Shown: positions 45,539 through 64,000 of the stretch, in pieces
Numbering within the stretch: the stretch's first letter is position 1
How the letters are laid out: every line of letters starts with the position of its first letter
DNA from: Streptomyces sp. NBC_01294
GTDB taxonomy: Bacteria; Actinomycetota; Actinomycetes; Streptomycetales; Streptomycetaceae
Reading direction: 5' to 3'
Assembly: GCF_035917235.1 (NCBI RefSeq)
Contig: NZ_CP108423.1
Span: 3,289,001-3,353,000 of the forward strand
DNA length: 64,000 nucleotides
Position numbers and translations under genes: made by a program
The notes under the pieces: model-generated
The model's input: only the letters and a program-made list of their open reading frames with translations
Databases searched by the model: none
Told to the model about the DNA's origin: nothing

Positions 45539-45931
45539 TCACCGAGAGGCGAACGGGGCGTCCGTCGGGACGATTTCGCGGCCCAGCGGGAGCAGGGCGA
45601 GCGGGACCATCTTGAAGTTGGCGATGCCGAAGGGAATGCCGATGAGCGTGATGCAGAGCGCGATGCCGGTGAAGATGTGGCCCAGGGCCAGCCACCAGCC
45701 CGCCAGGACCAGCCACAGGACGTTGCCGATGGCGGACCCGGCGCCCGCGTCGTGGCGCTCGACGGTGGTGTAGCCGAAGGGCCAGAGGGCGTAGACCGCG
45801 ATGCGGAAGGCGGCGATGCCGAAGGGGATGCCGATGATGGTGATGCACAGCAGCACGCCCGCGAGCAGGTAGCCCAGGAACAGCCATATACCGCTGAGGA
45901 TGAGCCAAATGACGTTCAGGATTGTCTTCAC
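45539..45931 (-). CDS. YccF domain membrane protein
   Basis: 130 aa with two copies of the YccF pattern: [17 protein letters not shown] with [15 protein letters not shown], and [17 protein letters not shown] with [15 protein letters not shown]. Four hydrophobic segments in total. The GTG start overlaps the htpX stop (GTGA), so it is translationally coupled to the protease. Function is unknown. Confidence 0.88.
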
Positions 45932-46791
45932 TGGCGGCGGCCTGCCATCTGTTCGAGCCGGGCGATGCGCTCGGCCATCGGAGGGTGTGTGGAGAACATC
46001 TTAGAAAGGCCTTCTCCCGGACGGAACGGGTTGGCGATCATCATGTGGCTCGCCGTCTCCAGTCGCGGCTCCGGCGGCAGCGGGAGCTGCTTGGTGCCCG
46101 CGTCGAGCTTGCGCAGGGCGCTGGCCAGGGCGAGCGGGTCGCCGGTGAGCTGGGCGCCGGACGCGTCGGCCTCGTACTCGCGCGAGCGGCTGATGGCGAG
46201 CTGGATCACGGAGGCGGCCAGCGGGCCCAGGATCATGATCAGCAGCATGCCGAAGAGGCCGGGGCCCTCGTCGTCGCTCGATCGACCGACCGGAATGAGC
46301 CAGGCGAAGTTCACCAGGAACATGATCACCGAGGCGAGTGCTCCGGCGACCGACGAGATCAGGATGTCGCGGTTGTAGACGTGGCTGAGTTCGTGGCCGA
46401 TGACCCCGCGCAGCTCGCGCTCGTCGAGGATGCGCAGGATGCCCTCGGTGCAGCAGACCGCGGCGTTGCGCGGGTTGCGGCCGGTGGCGAAGGCGTTGGG
46501 TGCCTCGGTGGGCGAGATGTAGAGGCGTGGCATGGGCTGGCGTGCGGACGTGGAGAGCTCGCGCACCATGCGGTAGAGCTGGGGAGCCTCGAACTCGCTG
46601 ACGGGGCGGGCGCGCATCGCGCGTAGAGCCAGCTTGTCGCTGTTCCAGTACGCGTAGGCGTTCGTCCCGAGGGCGATGAGGACGGCGACGATCAGGCCGC
46701 CCCGTCCGAAGAAGCTTCCGATGAGGATGATGAGTGCGGACAGCCCGCCGAGGAGTACGGCGGTCTTGAGCCCGTTGTGCCGGCGGTGCAC
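45928..46791 (-). CDS. htpX: HtpX-like membrane zinc protease
   Basis: 287 aa, M48B family. Two N-terminal hydrophobic segments, the zinc motif [13 protein letters not shown] (near residue 140), two further hydrophobic segments, and the third-ligand region [13 protein letters not shown]. It degrades misfolded membrane proteins under envelope stress. It is followed by the coupled YccF gene. Confidence 0.92.
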
Positions 46792-47065: not shown

Positions 47066-48625
47066 CTACTGCGCGAAGAGGCTGCCCGACGCGAAGCGCA
47101 GGACCAGCTGCGGGGCGCCCGAGAGGACGACCGCCGCGGTCGCGGTGAGGACGATGGCCGCCGTCACCGGCCAGGGGGCCTTCGTACGGGCCGCCGCGCC
47201 CTCGGTGCCCTGAGCGGCCTCGGCGCCCTCGGCGCCTTCCGGCGCCCGGAAGAGGAGTGCGGTCCACCGCAGGTAGTAGTACAAGGCGATGACGACGTTG
47301 ATCGCCATGACCACGGCCAGCCAGCCCAGGCCCGCGTCGACCGCGGACCGGAAGACGGTGACCTTGGCGAAGAGCCCGATGATGCCCGGCGGCAGGCCCG
47401 CCAGGCAGAGCAGGAAGAAGGCCAGCGAGAGGGCGGCCAGGGGGCGCTCGGCGTACAGGCCCCGGTAGTCGCTGACCCGGTGGAGCGGCTTCGTGCGGGC
47501 GACCAGCACCGCCACGGCGAAGGCGCCGAGGTTCACGACGGCGTACATGAGGGCGTAGGCGACGGCGGAGCCGATCTGGTCGCGACCGGTGTACGCGGCG
47601 GCGGCGATCGGGACGAGCACGTAACCGGCCTGGCCGACCGAGGACCAGGCCAGCAGCCGTACGGCGCTGTTCGGGCGGTCGGCGGACTGGCGCAGGGCGC
47701 CGGCGTTGCCCACCGTCATGGTGAGGGCGGCGAGGACGGCGAGGGCCGGGCCCCAGATGTCGGAGTACGCCGGGAAGGCGATCACCGTGATGACGACGAG
47801 GCCGGCGAAGCCGACCGCCTTGCCGGTCACCGAGAGGTAGCCGGCGATGGGCAGCGGGGCGCCGACGTAGGTCTCGGGGACCCAGAAGTGGAAGGGGACG
47901 GCCGCGGCCTTGAAGGCGAAACCGACGAGGGCGAGCGCGACACCGGCCATGGCGAGGGTGTCGAGCTGCCCGGGGACGTCTTCGAGCCGGTCGGCGACCT
48001 GGGTGAGGTGCAGGGAGCCGGTGGCGGCGTAGACGAAGCTGACGCCCAGCAGCGACACGGCCGTGGCGGTGACGGAGGAGAGGAAGAACTTGAGGGCGGC
48101 CTCGGAGGAGAGCCGGTCGCCGCGGCGCATGCCTACGAGGGCGAAGGCGGGCAGCGAGGCGACTTCGAGCGCGACGATCAGGGTGGCGAGGTCGCGGGAG
48201 GCGGGCAGCAGGGCCGCGCCGGCCGCGGAGGAGAGCAGCAGGAACCAGTACTCGCCGGCCGGCATGCGCGTCTCGCGGACGGGGATGACCGACAGCAGGG
48301 CGGTGACCAGGGCGCCGGCCAGCACCAGGAACTGGATGACGAGCGTGAAGTGGTCGGCGACGTAGCTGCAGGCCGCCGGGTCGCCGGTGAGGCAGAAGGT
48401 GCTGCGGTCGCCGGAGCGCAGCGGCAGCAGGGTGGCGATCGCGGCGGCCAGGCCGGCCACCGAGATCCAGCCGAGGAGCGGCTTGCTGCGCTCGGGCACG
48501 AAGAGGTCCGCGACGAGGACCCCGAGGCCGACGGCGGCGGTGATGACGACGGGCGCGATGGCGAGCCAGTCGACGGACTGGACGAGGCTGGGCGCCTCGG
48601 CGGAGAGGACCGTCAGGGCCGTCAT
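47066..48625 (-). CDS. nuoN: NADH-quinone oxidoreductase-like subunit N
   Basis: 519 aa from ATG at 48625, overlapping the nuoM stop (ATGA). Antiporter-like membrane subunit with about 14 helices; the VALEVASLPAFALVGMR helix-5 segment keeps the Glu of the proton channel, and GLAELQ-type loops are replaced here by GLPPGIIGLFAKVTVF near the C-terminal half. It is one of three proton-pumping paralogues with NuoL and NuoM, and the last gene of the operon. Confidence 0.92.
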   Translation of the reverse strand: MTALTVLSAEAPSLVQSVDWLAIAPVVITAAVGLGVLVADLFVPERSKPLLGWISVAGLAAAIATLLPLRSGDRSTFCLTGDPAACSYVADHFTLVIQFLVLAGALVTALLSVIPVRETRMPAGEYWFLLLSSAAGAALLPASRDLATLIVALEVASLPAFALVGMRRGDRLSSEAALKFFLSSVTATAVSLLGVSFVYAATGSLHLTQVADRLEDVPGQLDTLAMAGVALALVGFAFKAAAVPFHFWVPETYVGAPLPIAGYLSVTGKAVGFAGLVVITVIAFPAYSDIWGPALAVLAALTMTVGNAGALRQSADRPNSAVRLLAWSSVGQAGYVLVPIAAAAYTGRDQIGSAVAYALMYAVVNLGAFAVAVLVARTKPLHRVSDYRGLYAERPLAALSLAFFLLCLAGLPPGIIGLFAKVTVFRSAVDAGLGWLAVVMAINVVIALYYYLRWTALLFRAPEGAEGAEAAQGTEGAAARTKAPWPVTAAIVLTATAAVVLSGAPQLVLRFASGSLFAQ

Positions 48626-50199
48626 GAGTTGCCTCCTGCGAGGAGCTTCTGAACGGCCGGGTCGGTGAGGCCGAGGAGGACCGCGGGCCACAGGCCGGCG
48701 AGGACGGTGAGGGCGACGAGCGGGGTCCAGGCGGCGAACTCGTAGCGCTGGATGTCCGCGACGGCGAGCTCGGGACCGGCTTTCGGGTCTCCCATGCAGA
48801 CGCGCCGTACGACGATCAGCAGGTAGGCGGCGGTGAGGAGGGTACCGAAGGCGCCGACGGCCGTGTACGTGAGGAACGCGGGGCGGGACAGGCCCTCGGC
48901 CGGGTCGAACGCGCCGAAGAGGGCCAGCATCTCGCCCCAGAAGCCGGCCAGGCCCGGCAGGCCCAGGGAGGCGACGGCGGCGAAGGCCAGGAACGCGCCG
49001 AAGCGGGGGGCGCGGCCGTAGAGGGCGGCGCCGGTGGCTCCGGCGAGCGTGTCGAGGTCGGCGGTGCCGTAGCGGTCCTTGAGGGCCCCGACCAGGAAGA
49101 AGAGGAGGCCGGTGATCAGGCCGTGGGCGATGTTGGCGAAGAGCGCGCCGTTGACTCCGGTGGGGGTCATGCTCGCGATGCCGAGGAGGACGAAGCCCAT
49201 GTGGCCGACGGAGGAGTACGCGATGAGGCGCTTGAGGTCGCCCTTGTTCCCCTTCCGGGCCAGCGCGAGGCAGGCGAGCGATCCGTAGACGATGCCGACG
49301 GCGGCGAAGGCGCCCAGGTAGGGGGCGAAGGTCTGCATTCCGTCGGGGGTGACGGGGAGCAGGATGCGGACGAACCCGTACGTGCCCATCTTGAGCAGGA
49401 CGCCGGCCAGCAGGACGGAGCCGACGGTGGGCGCGGCGGTGTGGGCGTCAGGCAGCCAGCTGTGCAGGGGCCACATCGGGGTCTTCACGGCGAGGCCGAT
49501 GCCGATGGAGAGGACGGCCAGCAGCTGGGTGGTGTGGGACAGTTCGCGGCCGTTGTCAGAGGCGAGTGCCACCATGTCGAATGTGCCGCTCTTCAGTCCG
49601 ATCAGCAGCAGACCGAGCAGCATGACGACGGAGCCGAGGAGCGTGTAGAGGATGAACTTCCAGGCGGCGGCCTGCCGCTGAGCACCGCCCCAGCGGGCGA
49701 TGAGGAAGTACATCGGGATGAGGACCATCTCGAAGGCGAGGAAGAAGAGCAGCAGGTCGAGGACGGCGAAGGTCGCGAGGGTGCCGGACTCGAGGACGAG
49801 GAGCAGTGCGACGAAGGCCTTCGGGGAGGGGCCCTCGGGGAACTTGAAGTAGCTGTAGAGCGCGCAGAGGAAGAACAGCAGCGCGGTCATCAGGAGGAGG
49901 GGGAGCGAAATGCCGTCGACACCGAGGTGGATCCGGACGTCGAGCGCCGGGATCCAGCTGATGTCCGTCGTCGCCTGGAAGCGGGACGGGGCGTCGTGGT
50001 CGAAGCCCAGGGTGAGGGCGATCGCCGCGGCGAGGATCACGCCGGTCACGGTCACGCCGTGGCGGAGCACGGCCTGCTCGGGGCTGCGGCCCTTGAGGCC
50101 GGGCGGGGCCGGCAGGAGGGCCGCGGCGGCGCCGAGGAGCGGTGCGGCCACGATGAACGCCAGAAGGAACTGCATCACGGACGGGCTGATATCAATCAC
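48622..50199 (-). CDS. nuoM: NADH-quinone oxidoreductase-like subunit M
   Basis: 525 aa from GTG at 50199 (weak GTGAG at 6 bases). A GTG at 50217 overlapping the nuoL stop (GTGA) would add 6 residues; ATG at 50175 is also possible. The fold is antiporter-like: FLAFEMVLIPMYFLIARWGG carries the channel Glu, and VKTPMWPLHSWLPDAHTAAPT is the invariant helix-7/8 motif with its Lys. It would pump protons in a complex-I-like membrane arm. Confidence 0.9.
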   Translation of the reverse strand: MIDISPSVMQFLLAFIVAAPLLGAAAALLPAPPGLKGRSPEQAVLRHGVTVTGVILAAAIALTLGFDHDAPSRFQATTDISWIPALDVRIHLGVDGISLPLLLMTALLFFLCALYSYFKFPEGPSPKAFVALLLVLESGTLATFAVLDLLLFFLAFEMVLIPMYFLIARWGGAQRQAAAWKFILYTLLGSVVMLLGLLLIGLKSGTFDMVALASDNGRELSHTTQLLAVLSIGIGLAVKTPMWPLHSWLPDAHTAAPTVGSVLLAGVLLKMGTYGFVRILLPVTPDGMQTFAPYLGAFAAVGIVYGSLACLALARKGNKGDLKRLIAYSSVGHMGFVLLGIASMTPTGVNGALFANIAHGLITGLLFFLVGALKDRYGTADLDTLAGATGAALYGRAPRFGAFLAFAAVASLGLPGLAGFWGEMLALFGAFDPAEGLSRPAFLTYTAVGAFGTLLTAAYLLIVVRRVCMGDPKAGPELAVADIQRYEFAAWTPLVALTVLAGLWPAVLLGLTDPAVQKLLAGGNS

Positions 50200-50213
50200 G
50201 GCTGACTCACGGC

Positions 50214-52211
50214 TCACGATCCGGCGTTGACGTTGGCGAGGACGGCGGTGGCGATCGCCAGGACCACGGCGCCGGCGAGCAGGGCGCTCAGGTAGCTCTG
50301 CACGTTGCCGGTCTGGGCGCGGCGTACGAGGCTGCCGAGCAGCCGGGTGCCGGTGCCCGCGCCGCGGACGTACGTGTCCACGACCTCGCGGTCGAGGAAG
50401 CGGACCAGGCTCGCCGACGCCCGGACGGGGCGGACGAAGAGCCGGTCGTAGACGGCGTCGAGGTGGAAGCCGTCGGCGGCGTGGCGGTGCAGCGGGCCGA
50501 GGAGCGCCCTGCCGGGGTCGGGGGCGGATCCGGCCGGGACGGCGGGGTGATCGTGGGTCACCTCGGCCACCTCGGGGGTTTCCGCGGCTGATTCGGCGGC
50601 GGCGACGGAGGCGGGTACTCCGACCGCGGCGCCGGCGGCGGCCTTCACGGTGGCGCGCTGCCAGAGGGCGTAGGTGAGCATCACGCCGATGACGGCGGCG
50701 CCCGTGCCGAGGACCGAGGTGACCACGGTCGGGGTGAGCGCCCTGCCGTCGAACCAGTCGGCGAGGGGGCCCGCCGCGAGGCCGAAGCCGACCGTCGGGA
50801 TCGCGAGCAGCCACAGCACGCCGGTCATGGCGAGGGGCTCCTTGCCGTGGTCGGGGACGGCCGCGCCCCTGCCGCGGAAGGCCATCAGCCACAGCCGGGT
50901 GGCGTAGGCGGCGGTGAGCAGGGCGGTCAGCACGCCGGCGACCAGCACCACCCAGCCGGCGCTGCTGGGAGCGAATTCCGAGTGGCCGGTCGCGGTCTGC
51001 TCGGCGGCGACGAGGACGGCTTCCTTGGAGAAGAAGCCGGCGAAGGGCGGGATGGCGGCGAGCGCGAGGAGCGCGAGCGTCATCGTCCAGAAGGCGTCGG
51101 GGATGCGCTTGGACAGGCCGTCCATCCGGGACATGGCGGCCAGGGAGTTCGTACCGGCGGCGTGGATGATCACGCCCGCGCCCAGGAAGAGGAGCGCCTT
51201 GAAGGCGCCGTGGGACAGGAGGTGGAAGACGGCGGCGCTGCGGTCGCCGACGGCCAGGGCGCCGGTCATGTAGCCGAGCTGGCCGACCGTGGAGTAGGCG
51301 AGCACCCGCTTGATGTCGTCCTGGGCGAGGGCGGCGAGGGCGGAGCCGATCATCGTGACGGCCGCCAGGACGGCCATGACCACCAGGGCCGCGCGGGAGG
51401 CAGCGAAGACGGGCAGGAGGCGGGCGATGAAGTAGACACCGGCGGCGACCATCGTCGCGGCGTGGATCAGCGCGGAGACCGGGGTGGGGCCCGCCATGGC
51501 GTCGGGGAGCCAGGTGTGCAGCGGGAACTGCGCGGACTTGCCGGCGACTCCGGCGAGCAGGAGCAGCGCGATGAGCGTCGGGTGGTCGAGCCCGCCCGTG
51601 GCGACGGTGCCCAGGATCTTCGTGATCTGGAAGGAGCCGGCGTCGGTGGCGAGCGCGAACAGGCCGATCAGGAAGGGGACGTCACCGAGCTTGGTGACGA
51701 GGAAGGCCTTCAGGGAGGCGGAGCGGGCCGCTTCGGTCTCCCAGTAGTGGCCGACGAGGAAGTACGAGCAGATGCCCATGACCTCCCAGCCGACCAGCAG
51801 CACCATCAGGTCGCCGGAGTAGACGACGAGCAGCATCGCGGAGGTGAACAGTGAGACGAGAGCGGCATACGACGGGTAGCGCGGGTCCTCACGCAGGTAC
51901 GCCGTCGAGTAGAGCTGTACGCACGTGGCGACGACCCCGACCAGGATGGCGACCAGTGCGGCGAAGCCGTCGATGTAGAGCGAGAGGTCGATCGGCACCG
52001 AGCCGGTCGGGGTCAGCTCGGTCGCGGTGCTGATCGCCGGGCCGCCGCCCTGGCGGAAGGCGACGAGCACGGCCAGTACGGCGGCGCCGAGCGTCGGCAG
52101 GATCGCGAGCGGCCGGACGAACCCGGGGGCGGTGCGGCCGAACAGCAGTCCCGCGACCGCGCCCAGGAACGGCAGCAGCGGGACGAGGACGGCGAGGGTC
52201 GTGGTGCTCAC
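50214..52211 (-). CDS. nuoL: NADH-quinone oxidoreductase-like subunit L
   Basis: 665 aa, GTG start overlapping the nuoK stop (GTGA). It has the helices common to antiporter-like subunits, with [21 protein letters not shown] and [26 protein letters not shown]. The C-terminal extension beyond residue 500, including an Ala/Val-rich linker and a long amphipathic stretch, fits the lateral helix of NuoL. Confidence 0.93.
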
Positions 52212-52555
52212 GCGGTGACCTCGCTCTGGTGGTTCGCGGCGGGCTCGTGGCCCTCGGCGGTGTCGCGCAGCCGGTCGACGTCGGAGGTGCCCCGGTTGCG
52301 GTACACCATCAGCACGATCGCGAGACCGATGCCGATCTCGGCGGCGGCGATGGCGATGGTGAAGAGGGTGAGGGCCTGGCCGGCGTGCAGGGCGTCGCGC
52401 AGCCAGACGTCGAAGGCCACCAGGTTGAGGTTGACGGCGTTGAGCATCAGCTCGACGGACATCAGGACCAGGATGGCGTTGCGGCGGGCGAGTACTCCGT
52501 ACAGGCCCGTGCAGAAGAGGAGCGCCGCGAGCACGGCGGGGTAGGCGAGGTGCAT
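52208..52555 (-). CDS. nuoK: NADH-quinone oxidoreductase-like subunit K
   Basis: 115 aa from ATG at 52555, overlapping the nuoJ stop (ATGA). Three helices; the conserved glutamates sit in [18 protein letters not shown] and [17 protein letters not shown], both intact. The C-terminus is longer and more polar than usual (about 15 extra residues, [14 protein letters not shown]). Confidence 0.93.
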
Positions 52556-53163
52556 CAGCGCCGGCCCTTCTTCTCGCCGGGGCCGGCCGGGGTGGCGGCT
52601 TCGGCGGGGTCGTTCCTGCGGGACAGCACGATGGCCCCGATCAGGGCTGCGAGGAGGAGGACGGAGAGCGCCTCGAAGGGCAGCACCCAGTGCTGGAAGA
52701 GGATCTCGCCGGAGACCTTCGTGGAGCCCTGGACGGGTCCGTCGAGGTCGATCCAGGTCGTCCGGAAGGCGTCGACGACGACCCAGACCAGCGCCACGGC
52801 CGCGACGACGGCGACGCCGAGCGCGAGCAGGCGGTTGCCGGAGTCCGCGTCCGGGGAGCGGCCGATGGGCGCCTTGGTGAGCATCAGTCCGAAGAGGAGG
52901 AGGACGACCACGGAACCGAGGTAGATGAGGACCTGGACCCAGGCGATGAACTCCGCGGTCAGCAGCAGGTACTCGACGGCGATGCCCCCGAGCGCGACGA
53001 CCAGCCACAGGGCGGCGTGCACCAGCTGCTTGGTGGTGACCGTGACGAGGGCCGCGCCGAGGGTGGCGAGGCCGACGAGGATGAAGGCGATCTCGACGCC
53101 GGTCGGGGAGAGGAAGCCTGGCCCGGTGACGGCGGCTGCGGCCAGGGTGGCGGCGGGGGTCAC
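52555..53163 (-). CDS. nuoJ: NADH-quinone oxidoreductase-like subunit J
   Basis: 202 aa from GTG at 53163 overlapping the nuoI stop (GTGA). Five helices; helix 3 motif [25 protein letters not shown] contains the pi-bulge Tyr region. A polar insertion ([12 protein letters not shown]) follows helix 3, and the tail ends in Lys/Arg. Confidence 0.9.
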
Positions 53164-53765
53164 GCGTCTCCCTCCGGGGTCGGGGTGGTCGGCGGTTCGG
53201 TCTCGGCGGCCGGGGCGGCGGCTTCGGCAGCGGCGGCGGCTGCCGCGGCGGCCTCGGCCTTCTCCACTGCCTTGCGGGCGGCGGCGATCTCCTTGGGCTC
53301 CTCGGCGGCCGGGTCCAGCGCGGGCGGGGCCGGGACGGTCCACATCCACTCGCGGAGCTTGTCGCGCTCGTGGGTCAGCTCGTGGATGTCGGTCTCCGCG
53401 TACTCGAACTCCGGCGACCAGAAGAGGGCGTCGAAGGGGCACACCTCGATGCAGATGCCGCAGTACATGCAGAGGGAGAAGTCGATGGCGAAGCGGTCGA
53501 GGACGTTGCGGCTTCGCTCGCGGCCACCGGGGGTGGACGCGGGCACCGTCTCCTTGTGGGAGTCGATGTAGATGCACCAGTCGGGGCACTCACGGGCGCA
53601 GAGCATGCAGACCGTGCAGTTCTCCTCGAACAGGCCGATGACGCCGCGGGAGCGGGGCGGGAGTTCGGGCTGGACGTCGGGGTACTGGGCCGTGTGCGAG
53701 CGCTTCGTCATCGTGCGCAGGGTGACGGCCAGGCCCTTGGCGAGGCCGGATCCGGGGATGGGCAT
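53160..53765 (-). CDS. nuoI: NADH-quinone oxidoreductase-like subunit I (8Fe ferredoxin)
   Basis: 201 aa, ATG start sharing a base with the nuoH TAA. Two complete [4Fe-4S] motifs, [12 protein letters not shown] and [12 protein letters not shown], bind clusters N6a and N6b. Beyond residue 135 the protein is an Ala/Glu/Pro-rich tail ([20 protein letters not shown]) not normally present. It carries electrons to cluster N2 of NuoB in ordinary complex I. Confidence 0.93.
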
Positions 53766-54733
53766 TACTGGATCGCCACCTTCACGATGCCGGTGAGCGC
53801 GATCTGCGCGAGCGCGAGCGGGATGAGTGCGGTCCAGGCAAGCTTCTGGAGCTGGTCCTCGCGCAGGCGCGGGTAGCTCACGCGGAGCCAGATCACGACG
53901 AAGGCGAGGATCGCGGTCTTGAGCAGGGTCCAGACCCAGCCGAGGCCGTCGGCGCCGAAGGGGCCCTGCCAGCCGCCGAGGAAGAGGACGGTGGTGAGGG
54001 CGCAGAGGACGACGATGCCGGCGTACTCGGCGAGCAGGAAGAGGGCGAAGCGCAGGCCCGTGTACTCGGTGTACGCGCCGAAGATGATCTCGGAGTCGGC
54101 GACGGGCATGTCGAAGGGGGGCCGCTGCAGTTCGGCGAGGCCGGCGGTGAAGAAGACGAGCGCGCCGACGATCTGCCAGGGCAGCCACCACCACTCGAAG
54201 CTCTCGACGATGCCGGGGAGGGAGACCGTACCGGCGGCCATCGCGACGGAGGCGGCGGCGAGCAGCATGGGGAGCTCGTAGGCGAGCAGCTGGGCGGCGG
54301 TGCGCAGGCCCCCGAGCAGGGAGAACTTGTTCGCGGAGGCCCAGCCGGCCATGAGCGAGCCGAGGACTCCGACGCCCATGACGGCGAGCACGAAGAACAC
54401 GCCCGCGTCGATGACCTGGCCGACCGCGCCCTCGCCCGGGCCGATCGGGATGGCGAGGAGGACGAGGAGGTACGGCAGGAGGGCGACGGCGGGGGCGAGC
54501 TGGAAGATCCGGCGGTCGGCGTTGGCCGGGACGATGTCTTCCTTCTGCGCGAACTTCACACCGTCGGCGACGAGCTGGGCCCAGCCGTGGAAGCCGCCGG
54601 CGTACATGGGGCCGAGGCGGCCCTGCATGTGGGCCATCACCTTGTGCTCGGTCTGCCCGACGACGAGCGGGAGCACGAGGAAGACGGCGAAGACGACGAT
54701 CAGCCGCAGGGCCACGTCGAGGACGTCGTTCAC
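53765..54733 (-). CDS. nuoH: NADH-quinone oxidoreductase-like subunit H
   Basis: 322 aa from GTG at 54733 overlapping the nuoC stop (GTGA). Eight helices; [23 protein letters not shown] is clear. In the quinone-channel loop the usual PEAE reads [15 protein letters not shown], so the first Glu is Val and the second Asp, though [10 protein letters not shown] remains. It normally lies at the quinone tunnel and contacts NuoB and NuoD; no nuoD exists in this operon. Confidence 0.92.
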
Positions 54734-56259
54734 GCGTCGCCTCCGTTGTCGGGGGTGGGAGGGGGAGTGGGGGTGGGAGTGGAGGTGGGGGTGGGGCTGG
54801 TCTTGGGGTCGCGGGGGGCCGCCTCCGGCGTGTTTGCCTCCGGCGGGGTCTGCGGGGTCTCGGCCTCGGGCCCGGTGGTCTCCGACCCGTTTGCCTCCGA
54901 CCCGTTTGCCTCCGGCGCGGTCTGCGGGGTCTCCGCCGCGGGCCCGGTGGTCTTCGGCTTCGCCGGGGTCGCCTGCGGGCCGGGCGTCGTCGGCTTCGCC
55001 GGGGCCGATGCGTCCTCGGCGGCGGGCTTCGGGGTGCGCGGGGGCGCCTCCGGCGCGGGCGGCGGGGTCTCCGCCTGCGGGCCGGGCGTCGCCTTCGCAG
55101 GAGTCTCCGAGGCCGGCGGGGCCTCGAAGGCGGGCTTCGGGTCGTGCCAGGGGGCGTCCGTGCTGCGGGGGGTCGGTCGCTTCGGAGCTGTGGCTTCGGT
55201 CTCCGGGGTTGTCGCGGCCTGGCTGGCCGAGCCCTCCGTTACCGAGCGGGTGCGGCGGGGCGGGCGCGGGGCGTCCGTTGTCGGCGATTCCGGGGTTGCC
55301 GGGGACTCCGGGGTTGCCGGGGATTCCGGGGTGGCCGCGGCCTGGCTGGCCGAGCCGTCCGTTACCGAGCGGGTGCGGCGGGGCGGGCGCGGGGCGTCGG
55401 TTGCCGGGGATTCCGGGGTTGCCGGGGATTCCGGGGTGGCTGCGGCCTGGCTGGCCGAGCCCTCCGTTACCGAGCGGGTGCGGCGGGGCGGGCGCGGGGC
55501 GTCGGTTGCCGGCGATTCCGGGGTTGCCGGGGATTCCGGGGTGGCTGCGGCCTGGCTGGCCGAGCCCTCCGTGACCGAGCGGGTGCGGCGGACCGGGGCG
55601 CCCTCGCGCGGGGTGCGGGCGGCGGCGCCCGCCGCTCCTGCCGCGCGGGGGGTACGGGCCGGGCGGGCCGGAGCGGGCGGGAGCTGGCCCTTCATCGGGC
55701 CCCAGTCGTTGGGGTCGGGGACGCCCGGCGGGAGCATCTGGCGGCGCTTCGGGCCGTCGGGGTCCGCGCCCTCGCCCGGCTCCTTGGCGCCGGGCCAGGC
55801 CTTGGCGACGCGCGCCGCCAGGACGAAGTCCTTGCGCAGCGGGTGGCCCTCGAAGTTCTCCGGCAGGAGGAGGGGGACCAGGTGCGGGTGGTCGGTGAAG
55901 ACGATCCCGAACATTTCGAACGTCTCGCGTTCGTGCCATTCGGCTCCCGCGTACACGGCGACCGCCGACGGCAGGGAGGGGGCGCTGTGCGGGACGGTCG
56001 TGCGCAGCAGGAGGCGGCGTACGCGGTGGTTCTCCAGCGAGACGACGTGCGCGCAGATCCGGAAGCCGGCGCCGGCCTCGTCGACCGCGCTCAGCCAGTC
56101 GAAGTACGTGCAGCCCAGCTTGTCCCGGGCGATTTCGAGGGAGGAGATCCAGCTGCCGACGGGCACGTCCACCGTGAGGACGTCGTACGAGAAGTCGGCG
56201 ACGGCCTCGGCGCCGAAGACCGTCGGGGCCGCGTCGGGGAGGGAGTCGTAGAGGTTCAC
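54730..56259 (-). CDS. nuoC: NADH-quinone oxidoreductase-like subunit C with a long repetitive C-terminal tail
   Basis: 509 aa from GTG at 56259 overlapping the nuoB stop (GTGA). Residues 1-195 are a normal NuoC (30 kDa) domain: [22 protein letters not shown] and [15 protein letters not shown]. Residues 195-509 are Pro/Ala/Thr/Glu-rich and mostly repetitive: four copies of a 35-residue unit (one is 41) starting [18 protein letters not shown] with TPESPA sub-repeats, residues 224 to about 353, then further Pro/Thr-rich sequence. No NuoD domain is present; some species fuse C and D, but this tail is not NuoD. The stop overlaps nuoH, so nothing was lost to a frameshift within the gap. Confidence 0.9.
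55201..55590 (-). repeat. 105-bp in-frame tandem repeat in nuoC
   Basis: Three full and one partial unit; periods are 105, 105 and 123 bases. Inside each unit the 18-base TPESPA-coding element (GGGGATTCCGGGGTTGCC type on the plus strand) is itself repeated two or three times, and the longer unit differs by one extra 18-mer. Copies are nearly identical at the DNA level, so expansion seems recent. Confidence 0.88.
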
Positions 56260-56864
56260 GCGCCGGCCCCCGGAGTGGGCGCGGCCGGGGGCGTGACCAG
56301 GCCGCTCGTGAGCTGGGCGACCGACGGACCCTCGGCGTAGCGCTCGGCCAGCGACTCGCGGGCGATCTTCTCCTGGAGCTTGAGGATGCCCTGGAGGAGC
56401 GCCTCCGGGCGCGGCGGGCAGCCGGGCACGTAGACGTCGACGGGGATGATCTGGTCGACGCCCTTCGTCACCGAGTACGAGTCCCAGTACGGGCCGCCGC
56501 AGTTGGAGCAGGCGCCGAAGGAGATGACGTACTTCGGCTCGGGCATCTGCTCGTAGAGCCGTTTGACGGCCGGGGCCATCTTGTCCGTGACGGTGCCCGA
56601 GACGATCATGAGGTCTGCCTGGCGGGGCCCCGGCGCGAACGGGATCACGCCGAGGCGGATGAAGTCGTGGCGGGCCATGGACGCGGCGATGAACTCGATC
56701 GCGCAGCAGGCCAGGCCGAAGTTGAAGACCCACAGGCTGTACCGGCGGCCCCAGTTCAGGACCACCTTCATCGGTTCCGGGGCCAGGCGGGAGAGGACTC
56801 CGAGGCGCTTGGGCTCCGGGAGCAGTACGCCCTCGGTCGGCGTCACAGCCGGTGTCACGTCCAT
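56256..56864 (-). CDS. nuoB: NADH-quinone oxidoreductase-like subunit B (cluster N2)
   Basis: 202 aa from ATG at 56864. Cluster ligands: the tandem Cys in GLACCAIEF, Cys in [18 protein letters not shown], and [14 protein letters not shown]. The [18 protein letters not shown] segment is closer to archaeal or cyanobacterial (FpoB/NdhK) NuoB homologues than to the typical bacterial GGYYHYSYSVVRG version, and it has an extra Cys. The C-terminus has a short Ala/Pro tail. It overlaps nuoA by 10 bases. Confidence 0.94.
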
Positions 56865-57262
56865 TCGAGGACGCCCTTCTTGTACGCATAGAGCAGGCCG
56901 ACGGCCAGGAAGCCCAGGAAGATGAACATCTCCACCAGCGTCGTGGCGCCGTAACCGGCGGCGGCGAACACCGTCGCCCACGGGAACAGGAAGATCGAGT
57001 CGACGGCGAAGATGACGTAGAGGAACGCGTAGACGTAGTAGCGGACCTGGGTGTGCGCCCAGCCCTCGCCGACGGGGTCCACACCGCATTCGTACGTCAG
57101 CAGCTTCTCGTGAGTCGGGACCACGGGCCGCAGCAGGCGGCCGGCGCCGAACGCCACGGCCACGAAGAGCACACCGAGGGCGGCCAGCAGACCGACGACC
57201 GAATAACTCCGGAAGTAGTCCGCCGTGAGCACGGTTACGGTCGATACCGTTGGTTCGGGCAC
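56855..57262 (-). CDS. nuoA: NADH-quinone oxidoreductase-like subunit A
   Basis: 135 aa from GTG at 57262, chosen for GAGGAAC at 7 bases; a GTG at 57286 would add 8 residues but has no ribosome-binding site. Three helices and the [36 protein letters not shown] loop, whose YECG Cys is conserved; beyond it the usual long first helix [18 protein letters not shown]. It opens the ten-gene operon. A -10-like TAGACT lies at 57316-57311 on the minus strand; no clear -35. Confidence 0.92.
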
Positions 57263-57316: not shown

Positions 57317-57409
57317 GGGCCTGCCTCACACGGGGTGGGGTTATCCCCCGTTCACAGCACCCCGGCCACCCCATGGCATGAGCGGGGCGCGCTTGACAGG
57401 CTGTGGCGC

Positions 57410-58588
57410 ATGACCACGAGCCACGTCATCCCCGACAATGATCGACCTCCCCCGGTACGCGCCGTATTCAGCGCCGCGACGTGGAGGGAGATCGCCTTTC
57501 TGGTGAGCAACCTGCCCGTGGCGATCGTCGGTTTCGTTTACGCAGTTGTCATGGTTGCCGGGACGGGCGGTCTTTCCGTGACCGCGATCGGACTTCCGCT
57601 CCTCGCGTGCGGTCTCTATTTGTCTCGGCAATTGGGACGGCTGGACCGGGCACGCGCCCGCTGGCTGCTGGGCGTGCGGGTGGACGAGCCGACCCCGCTC
57701 CCCGGCCCGAAGCGGGCCGGCGGATTCTTCCCCTGGCTGTGGACGAGCATCAAGGACCCGGTCGCCTGGCGGACGGTGCTCTACCAGCTCATCCGGCTGC
57801 CGTGGGGGGTACTCACCTTCACGGTAGTCCTGGCCGGGCTGTTCGTGCTGTGGCCGGTGCTGCCGTACCTGGTGCGCCTGATGGCGAACGCGGACCGGGC
57901 GATGGCGCGGGGGCTCCTGTCGCCGTCCGACGACCTGGAGCGGCGGATCGCGGAGCTGGAATCCGACCGGGGCGTCGTGGTCGACACGGCGGCGGCCGAC
58001 CTGCGGCGCATCGAGCGGGACCTGCACGACGGGGCGCAGGCGCGGCTGGTGGCGCTGGCGATGGGGCTGGGCCTGGCGAAGGAGAAGCTGCTGGAGGACC
58101 CGGAGGGCGCGGCGGCGATGGTCGACGAGGCCCACGGGGAGGTGAAGCTCGCGCTCCAGGAGCTGCGGGACCTCGCGCGCGGGATCCATCCGGCGGTGCT
58201 GACGGACCGGGGGCTGGACGCGGCGCTGTCGTCGGTGGCGGCGCGGTGCGTGGTGCCGGTGAAGGTGGCGGTGGACCTGCCGGAGGTGCGACCGGCGGAG
58301 GCGATCGAGGGGATCGCGTACTTCGTGGTGTCCGAGCTGCTGCAGAACGTGAGCAAGCACGCGGGGGCGGGGGCGCGGGGCGCGAGCGTGGAGGTGTGGC
58401 GGGCGGGGCAGAGGCTGCTGATCCGGGTGTCGGACGACGGTCGGGGCGGGGCGGCCACCTCCGGGGGGAGCGGGCTGGCGGGGCTCGCCGAGCGGCTGGA
58501 TGCGGTGGACGGGGTGCTGGTGGTGGACTCGCCGGAGGGGGTGGGGACCGTGGTCACGGCGGAGCTGCCGTGGCGGGGGCGGGGGTGA
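57410..58588 (+). CDS. Sensor histidine kinase, NarL-system type (first of pair)
   Basis: 392 aa from ATG at 57410. The N-terminal membrane sensor domain has four helices ([55 protein letters not shown]) as in the putative-sensor PF13796 group. Then come an HisKA_3 helix with the phospho-acceptor His in [18 protein letters not shown] and an HATPase domain (QNVSKHAG N-box, DDGRGGA G1, [12 protein letters not shown]2). Upstream it diverges from nuoA. The next gene is a paralogue, then a response regulator. Confidence 0.9.
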
Positions 58589-58658
58589 GGCTTGCGGTGC
58601 GTGGTGGTGAGCGGGGCCCCTGCCGGGTGGGTGGGGGTCCCGTTCGCGTGGCCGGTGC

Positions 58659-58716
58659 GGCGCCGCCGCCTCGTGGGGCCGCCCCGGGTCCCGCGCCTCA
58701 AGCGCCGGCGGGGCTG
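58659..58716. repeat. Single inverted copy of the 30.8-31.2 kb repeat unit
   Basis: Read on the minus strand, the stretch contains AGCCCCGCCGGCG, GCTTGAGGCGCGGGA, and CCCGGGGCGGCCCC, closely matching the unit of the 30836-31250 array. It lies in the 263-base gap between the two kinase genes. The rest of the gap shows nothing I can name. Confidence 0.7.
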
Positions 58717-58851
58717 GATTTGGCCGGGTGGATTGGCGGGCTTGGTGGGGTTAACCCCCCGGTGGAGATGCCTACTCGCCGCATGGTTCGGCCGGGTGGG
58801 GGGCGGCAGGGTGGGGGTGTAGCGGAGGACCGGAAGGGTGGGGTCGGGATC

Positions 58852-60171
58852 ATGGGCAACGGCAACGGCAAGGGCAATGCAGGCGGTGTCGGGGCGGTGC
58901 TGCGGGCTCCGGTCGAGGGGCGGACGTGGCGGGAGTTCGGGTACCTGCTGATCGGGCTGCCGCTGAGCACGCTGTACTTCTCGCTCGCCATCACCGGCGT
59001 GAGCCTCGGCGCCGGACTGCTCGTCACCTTCCTCGGCGTTCCGGTCCTCGCCGGCGTGCTCGCCATGTGCCGCGGGTTCGGTCACCTGGAGCGGGCCCGG
59101 GTGCGGGCGCTGCTCGGGGCGGACATCGCCGATCCCGCGCCGATCCGGGCCGAGAAGGGCGGGGCCCTCGCCGCCATGGGTGCGCTGCTCAAGAGCGGGA
59201 GCGCCTGGCGGCACGTGCTGTACTCCGTGGTCCACTTCCCGTGGGCAGTGTTCGGTTTCTGCCTGGCACTGACGTTCTGGGCGACCGGCTGGTCCCTCCT
59301 GCTGTACCCGCTCTGGTTCTGGGTCTTCCCGGCCTACACCGACCAGCCCGGCCTGCAGCTCGTCCAGAACGGCGAGTACACCTTCTACCTCGACTCGCCC
59401 CTGGCGATCACCCTCACCTGCCTCGCCGGAATGCTCCTCACCCTCGCCACCCCGTGGGTGATCCGGGCCCTGACCACCGTCGACCGGGTCGTGGTCGGCG
59501 GACTGCTCGGCCCGTCCCGCCTGGCCACCCGCGTCACCGAGCTGGAGTCCGACCGGGGTGTGGTCGTCGACACCGCGGCCGCCGACCTGCGGCGCATCGA
59601 GCGCGATCTGCACGACGGGGCGCAGGCCCGGCTGGTGGCGCTGGCCATGGACCTGGGGCTGGCGAAGGAGAAGCTGGCCGAGGACCCGCAGGCCGCCGCC
59701 CGCATGGTGGACGAGGCGCACGGCGAGGTGAAGATCGCCCTCCAGGAGCTGCGCGACCTGGCCCGCGGGATCCACCCGGCCGTGCTGACCGACCGCGGAC
59801 TGGACGCGGCGCTGTCCTCGGTGGCCTCGCGGTGCGCGGTGCCGGTACGGGTGGCCGTGGACCTCCCGGCCCGGCCCGCGGCGGCGATCGAGGGGATCGC
59901 GTACTTCACGGTGTCGGAGCTGCTGCAGAACATCAGCAAGCACGCCGTGGCCCGGTCGGCCTCGGTGGACGTGTGGAAGTCCGGGGACCGGCTGCTGATC
60001 CAGGTCGCCGACGACGGCCGCGGCGGGGCCGGCACGGGGCCCGGTACCGGGGCCGGGACCGGGCTGGCGGGGCTGACCGAGCGGCTGGACGCCGTGGACG
60101 GGGTACTGGTCGTCGACTCCCCCACCGATGGCGGGACGACGGTCACCGCCGAGCTGCCCTGGCGCGCGTAG
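58852..60171 (+). CDS. Sensor histidine kinase, NarL-system type (second of pair)
   Basis: 439 aa from ATG at 58852, after a Gly/Asn-rich start. Four membrane segments (FGYLLIGLPLSTLYFSLAI; VSLGAGLLVTFLGVPVLAG; VHFPWAVFGFCLALTF; GMLLTLATPWVI), then [20 protein letters not shown] with the His, and an HATPase domain (ISKHAV N-box, DDGRGGAGTG G1). The catalytic half is nearly identical to that of the upstream gene, while the sensor half has diverged and includes a larger extracytoplasmic loop (about 25 residues), so the pair is a duplication. Confidence 0.9.
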   Translation: MGNGNGKGNAGGVGAVLRAPVEGRTWREFGYLLIGLPLSTLYFSLAITGVSLGAGLLVTFLGVPVLAGVLAMCRGFGHLERARVRALLGADIADPAPIRAEKGGALAAMGALLKSGSAWRHVLYSVVHFPWAVFGFCLALTFWATGWSLLLYPLWFWVFPAYTDQPGLQLVQNGEYTFYLDSPLAITLTCLAGMLLTLATPWVIRALTTVDRVVVGGLLGPSRLATRVTELESDRGVVVDTAAADLRRIERDLHDGAQARLVALAMDLGLAKEKLAEDPQAAARMVDEAHGEVKIALQELRDLARGIHPAVLTDRGLDAALSSVASRCAVPVRVAVDLPARPAAAIEGIAYFTVSELLQNISKHAVARSASVDVWKSGDRLLIQVADDGRGGAGTGPGTGAGTGLAGLTERLDAVDGVLVVDSPTDGGTTVTAELPWRA

Positions 60172-60201
60172 ATCTCGTAGATCTCGTAGATCTCGTAGAT
60201 C
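60169..60201 (+). repeat. Tandem 9-base TAGATCTCG repeats at the kinase stop codon
   Basis: Three complete copies of TAGATCTCG and a partial fourth (TAGATC) start on the TAG stop itself. Each copy holds the palindrome AGATCT. A multi-frame stop block and possible protein-binding cluster. Confidence 0.75.
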
Positions 60202-60519
60202 CACGGATGGACGGCTCGAGGGGCGGGCGGGTCGGCGGGCGGCCGCCGGCGGGCCGGCCCCTTCGTCCGTTCCGGCGCGCGCGGCTCCCGGCGCGCGCCT
60301 CCCTCCCTGCACGCCTCCCCCTCCGCTGCACCCGTTTGCACCATCCGTTTGCGGCATCCCTTCGTGGCGGCCGCTTGCGGCGTCCGACGTTCCACATGCG
60401 AAAACTCCCCCCGTACGCCCACCTGTTGTCGCGGCTCTGCCTTCAGCGGGGCTTGAGGCTGGGATGCTTGGCTGAGTCGGGTAGTGCGGGAAACGAGTGG
60501 ACGCGGGAGCTGCTGAATC
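60202..60519. other. Spacer between the second kinase and the response regulator
   Basis: 318 bases without a supportable gene. It has short GGCCGC/GCGGCC-type motifs and a lower-GC patch near 60400-60480, but no clear promoter pair. The regulator may be transcribed separately from the kinases. Confidence 0.5.
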
Positions 60520-61191
60520 GTGGACGACAGGGTGCGGGTGGTCATCGCCGAGGATTCAGTGCTGCTGCGCGAGGGCCTGACCCGGTTGCTGACCGACCGG
60601 GGGCATGACGTCGTGGCGGGCGTCGGGGACGCGGAAGCCCTGATCAAGACGGTGGCGGAGCTGGCGGCCGAGGACGCGCTGCCGGATGTGGTGGTGGCCG
60701 ACGTGCGGATGCCGCCGACCCATACCGACGAGGGCGTGCGGGCGGCCGTGCGGCTGCGCCGCGACTACCCCGGGATAGGCGTGCTCGTGCTGTCTCAGTA
60801 CGTGGAGGAGCAGTACGCCACCGAACTGCTGGCCGGTTCCAGCACCGGGGTGGGATACCTGCTCAAGGACCGGGTGGCCGAGGTACGGGAATTCCTGGAC
60901 GCTGTCGTCCGGGTGGCCCGGGGCGGTACGGCCCTGGACCCGGAGGTCGTCGCGCAGCTGCTCGGCCGCAGCAGGAAGCAGGACGTCCTGGCGGGTCTGA
61001 CCCCGCGCGAGCGCGAGGTGCTCGGGCTGATGGCCGAGGGGCGTACCAATTCGGCCGTGGCGAAGCAGCTGGTCGTGAGTGACGGAGCGGTGGAGAAGCA
61101 CGTCAGCAACATCTTCATGAAACTGGGCCTGTCGCCGAGTGACGGGGATCACCGGCGTGTACTGGCCGTTCTCACCTATCTGAAATCTTGA
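60520..61191 (+). CDS. NarL/FixJ family response regulator
   Basis: 223 aa from GTG at 60520 with GGGAG upstream. Receiver domain: VIAEDSVLLREGL carries the acidic pair, VVVADVRMPP the phosphorylated Asp (near residue 58), and LLKDR the conserved Lys (near 118). The output LuxR-type helix-turn-helix is LTPREREVLGLMAEGRTNSAVAKQL, continuing VEKHVSNIFMKLGL. It is the only regulator beside the two paralogous kinases, so both may feed it. Confidence 0.93.
   Translation: MDDRVRVVIAEDSVLLREGLTRLLTDRGHDVVAGVGDAEALIKTVAELAAEDALPDVVVADVRMPPTHTDEGVRAAVRLRRDYPGIGVLVLSQYVEEQYATELLAGSSTGVGYLLKDRVAEVREFLDAVVRVARGGTALDPEVVAQLLGRSRKQDVLAGLTPREREVLGLMAEGRTNSAVAKQLVVSDGAVEKHVSNIFMKLGLSPSDGDHRRVLAVLTYLKS

Positions 61192-61341: not shown

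Positions 61342-64000
<2,659 letters not shown>

Follow-up and report, generated by a model that had tools for sequence, protein, structure and literature searches.

A Second nuo Cluster of Streptomyces and Its Stand-Alone NuoD2: A Probable Ferredoxin-Fed Complex I Variant With Tryptophan at the Quinone Site

The window analyzed here, the whole stretch of 64,000 nucleotides at C1:3289001–3353000 of the 8.5-Mb genome of Streptomyces sp. NBC_01294, carries a cluster of ten nuo genes, nuo2, on the minus strand at positions 47066–57262 (Table 1). The genes run in the order A-B-C-H-I-J-K-L-M-N with D, E, F, and G missing, an arrangement proposed in the first-pass annotation and borne out by the open reading frames (ORFs) and their family matches. 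Successive genes overlap at every junction (A/B −10, B/C −4, C/H −4, H/I −1, I/J −4, J/K −1, K/L −4, and M/N −4 nt) with the sole exception of L/M (+14 nt). The coordinates likewise uphold the 4-nt overlap of nuoC2 and nuoH2 pointed out earlier, which leaves no gene hidden between C and H, and a Pfam search of NuoC2 found no NuoD domain fused to it. A nuoD concealed by overlap, by fusion to NuoC2, or by a frameshift was ruled out by the junctions and Pfam matches.

Table 1. Features of the window (plain coordinates) and of the rest of the genome (C1 coordinates).
Feature	Product or note	Position	Strand	Evidence
nuoA2	135 aa	56855..57262	-	PF00507, E 2.9e-31
nuoB2	202 aa	56256..56864	-	PF01058
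nuoC2	509 aa	54730..56259	-	PF00329, E 2.3e-32, residues 31-150
nuoH2	322 aa	53765..54733	-	PF00146, E 1.8e-100
nuoI2	201 aa	53160..53765	-	NCBIfam NuoI matches
nuoJ2	202 aa	52555..53163	-	PF00499, E 2e-35
nuoK2	115 aa	52208..52555	-	PF00420, E 1.1e-29
nuoL2	665 aa	50214..52211	-	TIGR01974 above cut-off; PF00361, PF00662
nuoM2	525 aa	48622..50199	-	TIGR01972 above cut-off
nuoN2	519 aa	47066..48625	-	PF00361; TIGR01770, E 8.3e-91, 305 bits vs cut-off 332.6
htpX-like	M48 peptidase; neighbor of nuo2 and of some nuoB2-nuoC2-nuoI2 clusters	45928..46791	-	PF01435
Pair of similar sensor kinases plus a LuxR-type response regulator	between nuo2 and korAB	57400-61191		
korA	2-oxoacid:ferredoxin oxidoreductase, alpha subunit	61342..63285	+	TIGR03710 above cut-off; PF01855, PF01558
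korB	beta subunit, cut by window end	63278..64000	+	PF02775, E 6.7e-31; PRK11866 and PorB_KorB below cut-off on cut piece
nuoD2	380 aa; stand-alone, ~217 kb from nuoA2	C1:3563195-3564337		NuoD family search
NuoF-family	distant match	C1:7042581-7043042		PF01512
NuoF-family	distant match	C1:965975-966448		PF01512

Pfam matches were obtained for A, B, C, H, I, J, K, L, M, and N, with NuoI2 recognized only by generic Fer4 models and NuoM2 and NuoN2 sharing one antiporter model; all ten subunits also matched NCBIfam models, NuoN2 below the model cut-off. A passage of PMC9239103 describes nuo2 as lacking NuoC and NuoL and calls its function unclear; contrary to that description, both subunits are present and recognizable here. 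NuoC2 combines a single NuoC domain match of ~120 residues with a long, repetitive Pro/Ala-rich tail. The tail (window 54730–55750) is rich in Pro, Ala, and Thr and contains near-identical repeats, and the length of the NuoC2 ORF differs between relatives.

NuoB2, marked by the signature motif GGPYWDSY, carries four cysteines (C53, C54, C119, and C149), which we take to be the ligands of cluster N2 and which were invariant in 21/21 aligned rows (19 NuoB2 and two NuoB1). Eight cysteines of NuoI2 in [4Fe-4S]-type arrangement, presumably cluster ligands, were invariant in all 19 rows compared (18 NuoI2 and one NuoI1). NuoI2 of NBC_01294 also has the conserved N-terminal segment, with its QYP, that is described below.

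The first-pass annotation had raised the possibility of another nuo operon or a stand-alone nuoD elsewhere in the genome, and both were found: a NuoD family search returned two places, the main nuo operon, ~29 kb from nuo2, and a stand-alone nuoD2 whose product is 34% identical to NuoD1. Among the ORFs listed beside nuoD2 there was no further nuo gene, although no search of that stretch with nuo queries was made; the adjacent ORF we take to encode an arylamine N-acetyltransferase. The fetched main-operon stretch covers nuoA1 to nuoM1, with nuoN1 falling outside, and the nine Nuo2 subunits that have counterparts in it showed local identities of ~30–51%. The NuoE family gave one genome match, inside the main operon. 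Of three NuoF-family matches, the main operon holds one, and the other two lie at a distance from either cluster; nuo2 lacks the NuoE, F, and G of its own that a 14-subunit NADH dehydrogenase has. A separate nuoD2 is not new for Streptomyces, since passages of PMC3765725 and PMC8388888 note that it lies apart from nuo2.

We surveyed 246 genomes of the class Actinomycetes, splitting NuoD2 from NuoD1 and NuoH2 from NuoH1 by bit score. NuoD2 was counted above 250 bits (two matches partial), together with one match of 225 bits, in the NuoD1 range, for which the Trp residue discussed below was verified (G157). On this basis NuoD2 occurs in 99 and NuoH2 (>250 bits) in 61 genomes. NuoD2 accompanies NuoH2 in 59 of these 61; the two genomes in which it does not, G014 and G108, are 72% and 80% complete. 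Both proteins are present in all 22 genomes of the genus Streptomyces, in agreement with the first-pass statement that incomplete second nuo clusters are frequent there. A NuoB2 DNA signature, which gave a single match per genome in 93 genomes and none in the control and which misses some diverged NuoB2 (e.g., G065), occurred together with NuoD2 in 88 genomes, alone in five, and not at all in 11 that have NuoD2; 142 genomes had neither. Because these genomes share ancestry, a p value for this association is exaggerated.

Within the class, no nuo2-type locus that was read across the C/H junction had nuoD in place. In other classes, nuoD2 follows nuoC and precedes nuoH2 in 13 of 20 fetched stretches (one, L172, is cut within nuoD2), forming an operon of 11 genes, and it is likewise in place at seven loci in named metagenome-assembled genomes of Nitriliruptorales, Nitriliruptoraceae, Acidimicrobiales, and unclassified Actinomycetota. 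The remaining seven of the 20 stretches comprised one stand-alone NuoD2, five EFG-less clusters (i.e., without NuoE, F, and G) with Tyr-type NuoD, and one ordinary operon. In Kibdelosporangium banguiense, nuoD2 lies just past nuoN2. A NuoD tree of 83 rows (built by a quick method, with several long branches and 19 same-genus rows left out) placed the Trp-type rows on one side of a branch with a Shimodaira–Hasegawa-like approximate likelihood ratio test (SH-aLRT) value of 99; the operon rows branch early, and the 60 stand-alone rows of the class form one clade nested among the operon copies. Given the in-place nuoD2 of other classes and this nested clade, NuoD2 appears to have left an ancestral operon. 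Judged by sequence comparison, nuoD2 is nuo2's own subunit, moved out of the operon in an ancestor of the class. That NuoD is by default borrowed from the main nuo operon was rejected on the grounds of co-occurrence, operon order, and the tree, and the first-pass suggestion that a complete nuo operon supplies NuoD is disfavored by a dedicated NuoD2 in trans in 59/61 genomes and the ancestral in-place operon.

Two side observations concern related clusters. Four nuo2 clusters (L113, L122, L290, and L295) have large A/B, B/C, or H/I gaps, filled in L122 by unrelated ORFs. Elsewhere in the phylum, EFG-less nuo clusters of another kind, whose NuoD is of the Tyr type, were seen in L177 and L178 (both from G366, which has two) and in L179–L181. 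For NuoE, F, and G, the loci of relatives were queried with an open frame running from stop to stop in place of curated genes.

Passages of PMC8119997 name Thermus Y87 and H38 as the residues to which the head group of the quinone binds and describe the Tyr as strictly conserved for this role. The NuoD2 column of Thermus Y87 holds Trp in 67/67 rows, with His38 kept in 62 of the 67. Trp was likewise found in 25/25 additional rows, 12 of which are stand-alone copies from the class and 13 come from other classes (12 in-operon and one stand-alone), and Tyr in 10/10 rows of NuoD1, Thermus, and other EFG-less NuoD. Database relatives of one operon-encoded NuoD2 had Trp in 120/120, these being the best 120 of 7,996 above threshold, as did 79 of 80 named loci, the remaining one not having been parsed. 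Since operon forms with a membrane arm already have it, Trp is older than both the relocation of nuoD2 and the membrane-arm losses described below. The first-pass idea that the assembly has no canonical quinone site therefore stands in that Tyr is replaced in the members checked, and falls in that NuoD2 itself exists.

NuoH2 is absent from 33 of the 93 genomes with the NuoB2 signature, some of which are incomplete assemblies. Among 26 NuoB2 stretches of NuoH2-less genomes, 21 hold nuoB2-nuoC2-nuoI2 (hereafter BCI clusters) and no nuo2 membrane gene, and one (G161) is of the same type except that nuoI2 lies ~4 kb away. In G030, nuoA2, B2, C2, and I2 are accompanied by a broken nuoH2, and the stretches of G016, G070, and G229 are cut by contig ends. 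The NuoH2 remnant of G030 (L127:10930–11301), located between nuoC2 and nuoI2, is 123 aa long with a large internal deletion, and J–N are absent from stretch L127. The G027 stretch (L135) covers the main operon of that genome instead of its BCI cluster and was used for its NuoB1 and NuoD1 row only. Near NuoD2, no other nuo gene was found in 20 plus 17 stretches; in a further 12, one has a 40% NuoL-like match nearby. By eye, the membrane-free rows of the NuoD tree fall into a clade of 33, G161 and G016 within a NuoH2-keeping group, and G030. The membrane arm appears to have been lost at least three times with NuoB2, C2, D2, and I2 (BCDI) kept; G070 could not be placed among these losses.

The N-terminal segment of NuoI2 (GLxKGLxVTL...QYP-like), which presumably lies along the membrane arm, follows the same division. 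It was found in 22/22 intact nuo2-type clusters and 12/12 eleven-gene operons, and is absent from 21/21 old membrane-free clusters. Of two recent losers, G161 has a degenerate copy of the segment and G030 an intact one. In the 21 old clusters, the distance from the stop of nuoC2 to the first Cys codon of nuoI2 is −25 to 86 nt. The cofactor cysteines are retained in membrane-free clusters. At least two NuoB matches were present in 26 of 28 genomes searched, and one each in G190 (ambiguous) and G128 (B2 itself); together with the BCI clusters, this rules out an orphan NuoD2 without a partner in the membrane-free genomes.

A potential electron source lies nearby: korA starts 4.1 kb from nuoA2, with two sensor kinases and one response regulator between. 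Among the korA matches listed, which cover 72 of the 93 genomes with the NuoB2 signature, korA is on the same contig as the signature in 62 genomes and within 10 kb of it in 60, the latter holding for 41/50 outside the genus, and in membrane-free genomes it is within 0.9 kb in 15/22, divergent where read. Overall, korA was found in 193/246 genomes (E 1e-50). In G194, which has no match at that threshold, a short korA-like fragment (L162:6893–6997) lies beside the BCI cluster, perhaps a recent korA loss with BCI kept. A position of nuoABC near korAB in Streptomyces is mentioned in PMC13118837, the physiological electron acceptor of KorAB from Mycobacterium tuberculosis was not identified by its authors in the section concerned (PMC2773412), and the electron donor of 11-subunit enzymes is called generally unsettled in a passage of PMC11238625.

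In its subunit list (A, B, C, D, H, I, J, K, L, M, and N, ten in the cluster and NuoD2 in trans), the set equals the EFG-less 11-subunit enzymes of Desulfitobacterium hafniense (nuoABCDHIJKLMN, as given in a passage of PMC11238625) and the cyanobacterial and plastid NDH-1. As in those enzymes, there is no NADH module, the cluster having no E, F, or G and the single NuoE-family match of the genome being in the main operon, and the N2 and NuoI cluster ligands, as we assign them, are kept; ferredoxin input would be expected. Nuo2 differs from them by nuoD2 lying outside the operon in this class, by Trp at the quinone-site Tyr, and by many relatives with B, C, I, and D only; because of Trp in place of the quinone-binding Tyr, we file it as a variant rather than a typical member. 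The nuo2/nuoD2 sets of Streptomyces treated in parts of PMC3765725 and PMC8388888 are the same kind of cluster with the same separate nuoD2. F420H2 dehydrogenase (Fpo/Fqo) is, like Nuo2, complex I-like and EFG-less; NuoD2 scored 311 bits against an FpoD cut-off of 600, and the F420 input subunit (FpoF/FqoF) was not sought. Group 4 [NiFe] hydrogenases have a homologous large/small/ferredoxin-like core (B, D, I), and NuoD2 reached 20.9 bits against the general NiFeSe_Hases model PF00374 (cut-off 25.8). In the open-licence literature, outside which most subscription papers fall, we did not meet the ancestral nuoD2-containing operon, the Trp change, or membrane-free BCDI.

From the gene content, the conserved Cys ligands, the dedicated NuoD2, the ancestral operon, and the Tyr-to-Trp change, we infer, with a probability of roughly 0.7, that nuo2 and nuoD2 encode an EFG-less, 11-subunit, ferredoxin-fed, menaquinone-reducing pump. 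Ten subunits would come from nuo2 and the eleventh, NuoD2, from its gene ~217 kb away. Reduced ferredoxin, for which KorAB is a candidate, unproven source, would most likely deliver electrons to the [4Fe-4S] clusters of NuoI2, whence they would pass to cluster N2 in NuoB2. Menaquinone would be reduced in the NuoB2/NuoD2 pocket, with Trp replacing the usual Tyr, and the NuoA/H/J/K/L/M/N arm would pump protons.

Several observations weigh against parts of this proposal. Trp lacks the hydroxyl of the Tyr to which quinone binds in canonical complex I (PMC8119997, in the part cited above), so menaquinone is not assured as the acceptor, and the survival of the BCDI core beyond the membrane arm in many lineages implies that pumping is not the sole role across the family. 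Among the matches listed for 43 of the genomes without the B2 signature, korA lies 11–33 kb from nuoH1 in 33/33 same-contig genomes; 11 of the 99 NuoD2-positive genomes have no korA match at E 1e-50, and korA was not found beside the fetched eleven-gene operons of other classes. The link to KorAB may thus be mere shared neighborhood, and the spread of korA, its nearness to nuoH1 without B2, and the 11 korA-less genomes weaken KorAB as an obligate partner.

The same facts lend themselves to other readings. The Trp-type quinone (Q) module may be no quinone reductase at all, with BCDI forming a ferredoxin- or KorAB-linked hub for another acceptor to which the Streptomyces arm is coupled. Trp in 67/67 and 25/25 rows, the repeated arm losses with BCDI kept, and the missing NuoI2 segment in all 21 old membrane-free clusters speak for such a hub, but operon forms with NuoH2 and the rest of the membrane arm have Trp already, and the second quinone ligand, His38, is mostly kept, so that we find it rather doubtful. 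For the membrane-free relatives, our tentative suggestion is that Trp-type NuoB2-C2-D2-I2 of many Actinomycetes might work as a membrane-free ferredoxin oxidoreductase of four subunits and be the redox partner that KorAB lacks, arising after at least three pump losses, with Streptomyces keeping the ancestral pump-attached version. Docking of BCDI onto the main complex I, whose membrane arm it would serve as a second kind of Q module, is unlikely: most NuoH2-less genomes have a single NuoH match, to NuoH1, and this and the paired NuoB matches noted above would fit docking, but the NuoI2 segment, kept in intact clusters and with a counterpart in NuoI1, has been lost.

A hybrid enzyme, in which Nuo2 exchanges subunits with the main complex (NuoD1 with NuoEFG, or alternative L/M) and NuoD2 is incidental, gains something from the proximity of the main operon (~29 kb), from the single NuoE match, and from suggestions of hybrid or differential incorporation in passages on Streptomyces (PMC9239103 and PMC3765725). 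We consider it distinctly improbable nonetheless, given that NuoD2 belongs to the nuo2 clade, that the 11 genes of the ancestral operon make up a self-contained set, and that the nine comparable subunits are only ~30–51% identical to their Nuo1 counterparts. Decay of nuo2 into a leftover in Streptomyces, which the partial losses of other lineages might suggest, is hardly credible against the presence of NuoH2 and NuoD2 in all 22 surveyed genomes of the genus, the intact cofactor cysteines, and indications, in parts of PMC9739823 and PMC3765725, that S. coelicolor contains nuo2 products in far greater abundance than S. lividans and that the operon is transcribed.

With the ferredoxin-fed pump as the preferred reading, nuo2 gains a full set of assigned subunits and a mechanism that can be put to the test. 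The Tyr-to-Trp change would be a natural and ancient one at a residue described, in the passage of PMC8119997 cited above, as strictly conserved, and a Q module persisting without its pump would offer a natural experiment on the relation of complex I to hydrogenases. A partner is also nominated for actinobacterial KorAB (PMC2773412, in the section cited above), on evidence from genomes other than that of M. tuberculosis.

Among the neighboring genes, the kinases and regulator beside nuo2 match AbrC1/2/3 by position (as these are placed in a passage of PMC9739823). The similarity cluster containing the htpX-like gene was found at 17 of 42 loci, four of these among the 20 NuoB2-search stretches, and the gene adjoins the BCI cluster in L158–L160.

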